From Modestobacter sp. VKM Ac-2984 (GTDB lineage: Bacteria > Actinomycetota > Actinomycetes > Mycobacteriales > Geodermatophilaceae), in NCBI RefSeq assembly GCF_026967985.1, contig NZ_JAPVBJ010000003.1:309101-373100 (forward strand): a DNA stretch of 64,000 nucleotides, in the 5' to 3' direction. The position numbers and the translations under genes were made by a program. The notes under the pieces were generated by a model, which did not search any database, had not been told where the DNA came from, and worked only from the letters and a program-made list of their open reading frames with translations. Shown piece by piece: positions 62,079 to 64,000 of this stretch (position 1 is its first letter; each line of letters opens with the position of its first letter).

Positions 62079-63584
62079 ATGAGCGTGCGTCGGGTCATGG
62101 GCACGGAGCTCGAGTACGGCATCTCGGTGCCGGGGCAGCCAGGGGCGAACCCGACGACGCTGTCGAGCCAGGTGGTGAACGCCTGGGCGGTGGCCGAGGC
62201 GCCGACGCCGCGCCGGCCGCGCTGGGACTTCGAGGAGGAGTCGCCACTGCGGGACGCCCGCGGCTTCGACCTGTCCCCGGCGCAGGCGCTGGACCACAAC
62301 GACCTGGACGACGACTCGGGGATGGCGAACGTCATCCTCACCAACGGGGCCCGGCTCTACGTCGACCACGCCCACCCGGAGTACTCCACGCCGGAGGTCA
62401 CCAGCCCGCGCGACATCGTGCTGTGGGACAAGGCGGGGGAGCAGGTGATGGCCGAGGCGGCCCGCCGCGCCGCCCGCGTGCCCGGCACCCAGCCAATCCA
62501 GCTCTACAAGAACAACACCGACGGCAAGGGTGCCTCCTACGGGGCGCACGAGAACTACCTGATGAGCCGGTCGACGCCGTTCATCGACATCATCCGCGGC
62601 TTGATCCCGTTCTTCGTGACCCGCCAGGTGTTCGCCGGCGCCGGCCGGGTCGGGATCGGCCCCGAGGGCCGCACCGACGGCTTCCAGCTGTCCCAGCGCG
62701 CCGACTTCTTCGAGGTCGAGGTGGGCCTGGAGACGACGCTCAAGCGGCCGATCATCAACACCCGGGACGAGCCGCACGCCAACCCCGACGACTACCGCCG
62801 GCTGCACGTGATCATCGGCGACGCGAACCTCGCCGAGCTGTCGACCTACCTCAAGGTCGGGACGACCTCGCTGGTCCTCGCCATGATCGAGGCGAAGGCG
62901 CTCAGCCAGGACCTCACCATCGAGGAGCCGGTCGAGGCGTTGCAGGCGATCAGCCACGACCCCTCGCTGACCCACCGGGTGCGGCTGCGCGACGGCCGCC
63001 GGCTGACCGCGATCGAGGTGCAGCGGGAGTACCTGGCCCAGGCGCAGAAGTTCGTGGCCGACAACGGGGACGACGACGAGCAGACCGCCGACGTGCTGGC
63101 CCGGTGGGCCGAGGTGCTCGACGAGCTGGCCGTCGACCCGATGCGGCTGGCCGACCGGCTGGACTGGCCGGCCAAGCTCCGGCTGCTGGAGGGGTACCGG
63201 CAGCGCGACGGCCTCAGCTGGGGCGACGCCCGGCTCAAGTTGGTCGACCTGCAGTACTCCGACGTCCGCCCGGACAAGGGGCTCTACCACCGGCTGGTGG
63301 CCCGCGGCTCGATGCAGCGGCTGCTCACCGACGCCGAGGTGACCGAGGCGATGACCCACCCCCCGTCGGACACCCGGGCCTACTTCCGCGGCGAGTGCCT
63401 GCGCCGCTACCCGGGTCAGGTCGCTGCGGCGTCGTGGGACTCGGTGGTCTTCGACGTCGGCCGGGAGAACCTGGTGCGCATCCCGACCATGGAGCCGCTG
63501 CGGGGCACCCGGGAGCACGTCGGCGCGCTGTTCGACGCCACCTCCACCGCCGCCGAGCTGGTCGACCGGCTCACCGCCCGCTGA
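62079..63584 (+). CDS. dop: Deamidase/depupylase of Pup
   Basis: Dop converts the C-terminal Gln of Pup to Glu and also removes Pup from tagged proteins. The 501-residue protein has the glutamine-synthetase-like fold of the PafA/Dop family: [20 protein letters not shown] (ATP/metal Glu), [14 protein letters not shown] (Asp and Glu at the active site), [20 protein letters not shown] and [20 protein letters not shown]. The insert [20 protein letters not shown] includes the Dop loop region. The Gln-ending Pup directly downstream shows that deamidation is needed here. Confidence 0.95.
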
Positions 63585-63689: not shown

Positions 63690-63899
63690 ATGGCCACGAG
63701 GGACACCGGCGGGCAGCAGAAGGCCACGCGCACGCGGGAGGAGACCGAGGAGGTCGAGGCGTCGGTCGACACCGAGGCCGCCGAGCGGCGCCAGGAGATG
63801 ACCGACGACGTCGACTCGATTCTCGACGAAATCGACGGCGTCCTCGAGGAGAATGCTGAGGAATTTGTTAGGAGCTATGTACAAAAAGGAGGCCAATAG
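63690..63899 (+). CDS. pup: Prokaryotic ubiquitin-like protein Pup
   Basis: This 69-residue, acidic, mostly disordered tag has ARC-binding helix SILDEIDGVLEENAEEFVRS and C-terminus YVQKGGQ, the Gln form that Dop must deamidate before ligation. GGAGGG precedes ATG 63690. Up to codon 54 the codons are the usual GC-ending ones. The last 15 sense codons use only four G/C third bases and include TTT, GTT, AGG, TAT, GTA, CAA and AAA, then TAG. The amino acids remain perfectly conserved. Confidence 0.97.
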   Translation: MATRDTGGQQKATRTREETEEVEASVDTEAAERRQEMTDDVDSILDEIDGVLEENAEEFVRSYVQKGGQ

Positions 63900-63925
63900 C
63901 CATTCTATTGGCCATTAAAGAATGG
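63891..63925 (+). promoter_or_regulatory. Two mutually exclusive hairpins across the pup stop and next start
   Basis: Hairpin A: GGCCAATAG (63891-63899, including the pup stop) pairs perfectly with CTATTGGCC (63905-63913). Hairpin B: CCATTCT (63900-63906) pairs with AGAATGG (63919-63925), which contains the start codon of the next ORF. They share bases 63905-63906 and B's left arm forms A's loop, so a ribosome or pairing state could switch between them. No T-run is present, so an attenuator of translation seems more likely than a terminator. Confidence 0.55.
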
Positions 63926-64000
63926 TTGACTCGAAATACTGTAAGGACTGTGGTGAGGTCCGACCAGCAGGAGAGTTCACGTCCGACCGCCGGAGGGCTG
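63922..64000 (+). CDS. Start of an endonuclease VII/HNH-like protein (partial)
   Basis: The frame starts at ATG 63922 and runs off the window: MVDSKYCKDCGEVRPAGEFT then SDRRRA. C-x-x-C-G-E-x-(K/R)-P-x-x-E-F is the typical N-terminal zinc ribbon of recombination endonuclease VII-type HNH proteins. From general knowledge such a gene is often found between pup and prcB in actinobacteria. No good ribosome site precedes it because the upstream bases are AT-rich and lie in a hairpin. The catalytic part is outside the window. Confidence 0.6.
   Translation, partial: MVDSKYCKDCGEVRPAGEFTSDRRRA

Follow-up and report, generated by a model that had tools for sequence, protein, structure and literature searches.

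A putative homing endonuclease cassette with a co-inherited, synonymously recoded pup end at the pup-prcB junction of Geodermatophilaceae

Why does pup end in AT-rich codons that leave its protein nearly conserved, and why does the same composition run on into an endonuclease gene? These questions are raised by the 3' end of the window, that is, the whole stretch of 64,000 nucleotides from Modestobacter sp. VKM Ac-2984 that was analysed here, where dop and pup are followed by an endonuclease gene (Table 1), and where prcB comes next, beyond the window in the same genome. Endo VII genes beside pup have been noted in genome surveys. The Pup of the window shares 99% identity with the Pup of Modestobacter sp. 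VKM Ac-2982.

A sequence-only reading of this DNA had described an abrupt AT-rich switch from position 63852, within the 3' end of pup and on into the next ORF. The switch is real, as GC content is 0.40 in the last 15 codons of pup versus 0.68 in the preceding 39, and again 0.40 over the 60 nt from the pup stop codon onward. It is less abrupt than described, since the rare codons ATT and GAA already appear at about 63822-63836, slightly ahead of 63852, and the change in composition is thus a ramp and not a knife edge. The pup ORF is uninterrupted in the ORF list of the window and no Rfam family reached the gathering threshold in the 10 kb around the locus, which speaks against a group I intron or an intein. 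No cassette-bounding repeat of at least 12 nt, as the terminal inverted repeats or target duplication of a transposon might be, was found in the one locus searched (L001:1560-2500, where L001 is the locus of the window). Inverted repeats are apparently also present at other CCATTC-type spacers (L019, L023, L028), as read by eye.

Table 1. Positions of the genes and sequence elements discussed (window coordinates unless a locus is named).
Feature	Position	Strand	Description and basis
dop	62079..63584	+	conserved, upstream of pup; 501-aa ORF; named from sequence and gene order
pup	63690..63899	+	69 aa, intact host gene, cassette at its 3' end; ORF and Pfam Pup (E = 2e-29)
Recoded AT-rich last 14 pup codons	63855..63896	+	protein nearly conserved; GC profile, codon counts
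Core codons -6 to -3, GTA CAA AAA GGA	63879..63890	+	codon coupling, codon counts
Perfect 9-bp inverted repeat GGCCAATAG-ccatt-CTATTGGCC	63891..63913	+	over the pup stop; read by eye
Spacer, pup stop to endonuclease start	63900..63921	+	22 nt; sequence co-varies with the endonuclease N-terminal half
Endo VII (DHHRN) endonuclease gene, start	63922..64000	+	ATG at 63922, open past the window end
Whole endonuclease gene	L001:1724-2356		210 aa; then prcB at about L001:2469

The ORF downstream of pup had been described as beginning like a zinc-ribbon endonuclease VII/HNH protein. The Endo VII assignment holds (Pfam Endonuclease_7, PF02945, E = 9e-24, residues 117-190 of 210), but the motif is DHHRN and not a classical HNH. 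It lies C-terminally, as in F-CphI-like homing endonucleases, and the N-terminal half of the protein is a zinc ribbon, which is probably its DNA-binding part. Among the intact proteins of the family (Geodermatophilaceae), the catalytic residues are D in 69/69, H in 69/69, H in 68/69, R in 69/69 and N in 67/69, and cysteines C141, C144, C166 and C169 are invariant in 36 aligned proteins, with DHDH between the two zinc-binding CxxC pairs. Purifying selection acts on the intact copies (median dN/dS of 0.19 over 73 finite values from 75 overlapping pairs, several dS values being above 1). Sequence profiles matched Hpy99I (PDB 3fc3, E = 3e-14, residues 65-190) and Endo VII. For the protein of the Modestobacter relative L199, a predicted model (mean pLDDT 90, pTM 0.62) had Hpy99I as its sole Foldseek hits with E <= 0.001 (top E = 1e-5) and T4 Endo VII as the next match (E of about 0.01), with low TM-scores for both. 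Assignment as a Holliday junction resolvase was rejected, as only 54 profile positions (124-177) match PDB Endo VII, in which the matching part is N-terminal (8-71).

Pup was recovered in 104 of 112 family genomes and, in one search alone, in 322 of 393 genomes. A search with the endonuclease in 59 related genomes gave matches in 31, beside pup save for two weak matches elsewhere. We analysed 102 family loci, leaving out duplicates (L062, L063, L067, L069, L073, L198, L002), and assigned states, partly by eye, to 101 of them: 49 carry an intact endonuclease of N-terminal type A, 20 an intact type B and two a type C, 22 are decayed, five are deleted or gene-free and three lie at contig edges, which puts decay or loss at 27/101. 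Four decayed loci have an open frame: in L124, L126 and L128 it is full but the usual start codon was not found, and in L127 the zinc-ribbon cysteines are lost. Seventeen decayed A loci were picked by eye, and the remaining 10 of the 22 decayed and five deleted loci are B-like or unclear, which makes this division a matter of judgement. Codon counts cover 45 A and 19 B loci, with the intact type C loci L143 and L182 and the contig-edge locus L197 entered as decayed and L178 left out, another ORF having been taken there as pup; assigning L008, L014, L030 and L181 to A and L161 to B by hand brings the totals to 49 and 20. Type C itself, with about 295 aa and an MSRRCxDCxR-like start, occupies the same site in Blastococcus (L143, L182, L197) and matches the A/B model weakly; its copy in L197 breaks or runs off near the contig edge.

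In close relatives, the endonuclease at the pup-prcB junction is thus missing, decayed or exchanged for a different version. Homing genes go through a cycle of invasion, decay and loss, and intact, decayed and missing copies side by side are what this cycle predicts. The family loci without the gene may have lost it by deletion and need not be sites that were never invaded; in L122, for instance, the spacer still starts in a type B-like way, which suggests a deletion of the cassette. Length variation was also seen elsewhere in the region. The dop-pup interval is a second variable site, upstream of pup (e.g. L005, L014, L025, L144), with 230-1355 nt from the apparent dop stop to pup in 25 of 64 family loci and 86-120 nt in the other 39, and four Nonomuraea/Microbispora loci (L255, L257, L260, L272) have pup-prcB gaps of about 1.5-2.7 kb in which no endonuclease was detected.

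Among 120 loci of the class, the mean GC of the last 15 pup codons was 0.532 with the endonuclease (56 loci), 0.618 at short gene-free pup-prcB joints (41), 0.636 with remnants (5) and 0.621 in the others (18). Outside the family, where the comparison covers 89 fetched loci, third-position GC (GC3) falls on average by 0.236 in 23 endonuclease loci versus 0.043 in 57 loci without the gene, and the nine remnant loci resemble gene-free ones (last-12 GC3 of 0.833). The association of AT-rich end and endonuclease had been predicted to be strict, and it is strong only: the GC3 fall is at most 0.10 in 5 of the 23 endonuclease loci (L045, L059, L082, L084, L116), L107 shows a fall of 0.28 with no endonuclease detected (among 20 of the 57 gene-free loci listed), and decayed alleles are partly recoded. 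AT-rich ends without the endonuclease, named beforehand as evidence against homing, do therefore exist, in decayed or deleted alleles and in these rare exceptions. Empty alleles had been expected to be GC-coded, which is the case at most gene-free joints (CAG in 30/41, AAG in 35/41, GGC in 29/41) but not at the rest.

In order to compare the cassette with its hosts, we used 65 family loci with an intact endonuclease and enough prcB, with a host distance built from prcB and the pup body (i.e. pup without its end). The endonuclease does not follow host-gene similarity: identity of its N-terminal half correlates with prcB identity at r = -0.03, versus r = 0.35 between prcB and the pup body. Vertical inheritance with no empty sites, the other pattern named as contrary to homing, is not what is seen. 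Among 30 pairs of near-identical hosts (prcB at least 94% and pup body at least 90% identical), which share members and form about seven clusters of related hosts by eye, the N-terminal halves are less than 60% identical in 22/30 and at least 80% identical in 3/30.

Alignment of such pairs indicates that the cassette is locally replaced as an allelic unit, usually together with the pup end. The exchanged stretch usually comprises the last 25-50 nt or so of pup, the spacer and either the whole endonuclease or its N-terminal half. In L018/L031, the pup body has 0/145 mismatches and the last 30 nt have 11/30, every codon from -10 to -2 has a different third base, the endonucleases are 41% identical, and the flanks return to 97-100% identity directly after the endonuclease stop. 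The window locus differs from L013 and L026 in its spacer and N-terminal half, with 5/30 and 9/30 changes at the pup end, and the last 230 nt or so of the endonuclease gene are 83-100% identical. Between Geodermatophilus dictyosporus and G. tzadiensis (L144/L149, the same two genomes and no further case), type A is exchanged for type B: per 60-nt window, identity is 88-100% in the flanks (about 2.7 kb upstream, about 1.5 kb downstream) versus 15-68% across the cassette, and beyond these flanks it is lowered by indels. Not every replacement changes the pup end to this extent. In L009/L013 the N-terminal halves are 48% identical, yet there is only one difference in the final 30 nt of pup (1/30), and in the A-subtype swaps L001/L013 and L001/L026 the core codons are nearly the same. 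Core recoding therefore cannot account for every replacement, and the A-subtype swaps would require a role for the spacer or for other positions.

The N-terminal types differ in the synonymous code of the pup end that accompanies them. Type A loci have CAA at -5 (43/45), AAA at -4 (39/45) and GGG at -3 (35/45), as well as GTA at -6 in 31/45, whereas type B loci have CAG (19/19), AAG (18/19) and GGC (17/19) at -5 to -3, and GGA at -2 in 11/19 versus 2/45 in type A. In the prcB genes of the family, AAA makes up 0.5% of Lys, GTA 1.7% of Val and CAA 9.7% of Gln codons, and the excess of rare codons at type A pup ends is far beyond chance (binomial). With the five hand-assigned loci added, CAA at -5 occurs in 46/49 A, 11/17 decayed A and 0/20 B loci, and CAG at -5 in 20/20 B loci. 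The unrecoded CAGAAGGGC is found in 0/49 intact A loci (0/45 plus the four added by hand), in 16/19 B loci and in three of the 17 decayed or deleted A-like loci (L125, L128, L136). The direction of the A/B code is the same in all six genera that have both types, being weakest in genus g4, with CAGAAA in two of its three A loci. AT-richness, which the sequence-only reading had placed at the centre, is accordingly not the key property: type B, which is hardly AT-rich, mostly keeps CAGAAGGGC and recodes other positions, such as -2 to GGA, and at -3 type A favours GGG, a codon with no higher AT content than GGC. The excess of GGG speaks against a simple preference for AT, even if these hosts generally use it more than any other alternative to GGC (16%). 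Nor is Pup left entirely unchanged, as had been supposed, but nearly so: among family loci its tail varies at -9 (R/K), at -8 and at the last residue (Q/E). The last codon is GAG in 15/19 type B loci and encodes Gln in 29/45 type A loci, so that a swap can turn a Gln end into a Glu end or the reverse.

Mantel tests on the same 65 loci place this coupling between the pup end and the endonuclease N-terminal half (partial r = 0.54 given the host, 0/1000 permutations). The pup body is hardly related to the N-terminal half once prcB is given (r = 0.08, 50/1000), and given the N-terminal half the catalytic half adds nothing for the pup end (-0.01). Codon by codon, coupling is 0.74 at -5, 0.59 at -4, 0.49 at -3, 0.20 at -2, 0.13 at -6 and 0.03 at -7, and from -7 upstream it stays between -0.06 and 0.11. 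Type A also has many rare codons at -15 to -7, which are not coupled to the N-terminal half, so that part of the AT-rich ramp is not accounted for. Two further observations count against a homing cassette, namely that a slight independent correlation of the pup end with the host remains (r = 0.11, 2/1000) and that decayed A loci often retain the recoding. Decayed type A alleles drift back toward the usual code in part: all three core positions are recoded in 8/17 decayed versus 36/49 intact A loci (p = 0.07; p = 0.13 for AAA), where, as for the binomial tests above, relatedness among loci makes the p-values too small.

The coupling could be sought in expression, if the recoded pup end provided the endonuclease with a better ribosome-binding or reinitiation site, or with a less structured leader. 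The endonucleases do have only poor ribosome sites themselves (mean -3.4 kcal/mol in A and -3.8 in B), can start on the pup stop in some lineages (L059, L108, L115, L116, L117), and type A ends pair slightly better with the anti-Shine-Dalgarno sequence (-11.8) than 25 gene-free ends with prcB 40-300 nt off (-11.1). The same pairing energies nevertheless led us to reject Shine-Dalgarno improvement as the cause of the recoding: type A pairs more weakly than type B (-13.0 kcal/mol) and about as strongly as the 16 gene-free ends that have prcB at most 40 nt away (-11.9), and among the 64 synonymous combinations CAAAAAGGGGGC comes 50th. Moreover, the distance of the start codon from the pup stop varies widely, and types A and B have the arrangement in common but not the code. 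An expression signal thus appears unlikely.

A diverse and perhaps useful nuclease locus might instead be shuffled by plain homologous recombination through its conserved flanks, with the pup end hitchhiking and no transfer driven by the nuclease. Both the swaps, which are plain between near-identical hosts, and the purifying selection on the nuclease fit such a scenario, and ordinary recombination through conserved flanks could indeed be what moves the cassette. Hitchhiking, however, predicts a linkage that fades smoothly into pup, whereas the coupling is concentrated at -5, -4 and -3; the recoding uses codons that are rare elsewhere in the hosts; and on the pup side, the exchanged sequence of the clearest swaps extends over no more than tens of nucleotides. 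We therefore regard recombination without nuclease-driven transfer as an improbable explanation of the whole pattern. It is highly improbable that the nuclease serves its host, as an orphan restriction-like (Hpy99I-like) or repair enzyme with pup recoded to avoid self-cutting. Hpy99I is its closest solved structure over residues 65-190, but its immediate neighbours in the genome of the window are pup and prcB, with no methylase, decay and loss are high, and a short restriction site would be expected to be avoided genome-wide and not at one locus.

The reading that we favour, with a probability of about 0.72 and resting on comparative sequence data, is that of a free-standing DHHRN homing endonuclease with a co-inherited, self-protecting synonymous recoding of pup and with competing specificities. 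The nuclease would cut those pup alleles that end in the usual GC-rich code or in the code of another cassette, and the break would be repaired from the incoming cassette, so that the gene and the recoded pup end were copied together. The recoded end would still encode Pup and would no longer be cut. Once the gene decayed, selection on the recoding would relax and the codons would drift back. As each type has another code, one cassette could displace another, and this would account for both the near-full occupancy in the family and the swapping of cassettes. The homing-type element with its own recoded pup end that was proposed from the window alone thus survives, and is strengthened, in its central idea, in that the recoded end is usually inherited with the endonuclease and the host is not followed, with three of its specifics corrected.

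More tentatively, and with somewhat more doubt than trust, we propose that the pup 3' end may be an arena of several homing specificities (A with its spacer subtypes, B and C), each with a differently recoded, self-protecting and gene-rescuing pup end. Each would leave open a sequence that another attacks, leading to a perpetual leapfrogging invasion and to a natural home-and-rescue system in bacterial chromosomes. If the homing reading is right, a selfish element lands at a core gene of the bacterial ubiquitin-like system and spreads by exchanging the end of that gene for a recoded version that still works. Such an element would be a natural counterpart of home-and-rescue drives, and the target of its nuclease could be read from codon choice alone. 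It would also provide a system in cell chromosomes, available in named strains, in which to ask how self-cleavage is avoided by homing elements and what becomes of them once their sites are nearly full. Synonymous anomalies at gene ends are, we suggest, possible footprints of neighbouring selfish genes.

Searches for a vehicle found no phage record carrying both pup and the endonuclease among those searched. Relatives of the endonuclease occur in 1734 phage records, where among the matches listed the best place covering 90% is 37% identical and two records reach 60-80% identity in some place, in 186 stretches of viral contigs, and in 19 plasmid records, all below 60% identity. An unverified 'Bacteriophage sp.' scaffold from human faeces (L389:4001-4084; MT835496.1:43633-43716) codes there for a segment 79% identical to Pup residues 42-69 and may be a bacterial contig. 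Our literature search found no paper joining prcB, pup and 'endonuclease VII' or 'HNH endonuclease'; the word 'endonuclease' is absent from PMC8223512, and the main text of the F-CphI paper (PMC6083498) makes no mention of actinobacteria or the proteasome.

Among known systems, Hpy99I resembles the pup endonuclease over its second zinc ribbon and catalytic part, whereas the pup endonuclease has an additional N-terminal zinc ribbon and no neighbouring methylase. A precedent for a homing endonuclease with the DHHRN (Endo VII) motif is F-CphI of cyanophage S-PM2, as described in PMC6083498. Both have catalytic D, H, H, R and N in a C-terminal motif and are free-standing beside a conserved gene. 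F-CphI is, in that account, a phage gene whose own psbA is shielded by a group I intron; the pup cassette differs in lying on a bacterial chromosome beside an uninterrupted pup, where protection would come from synonymous recoding. Like the seg and mob genes of T4-like phages, as outlined in PMC2988022, the cassette is optional between conserved genes, and its flank would likewise be co-converted. Those free-standing endonucleases cut hundreds or thousands of base pairs from their genes, according to the same review, whereas here the coupled codons are no further than about 20 nt from the pup stop. A parallel in design is the engineered drive HomeR, which, according to PMC7968924, targets the 3' end of a gene, a choice that keeps the necessary recoding small, and supplies a re-coded rescue end; HomeR is engineered, Cas9-based and used in flies, whereas the pup cassette is natural and its drive putative.
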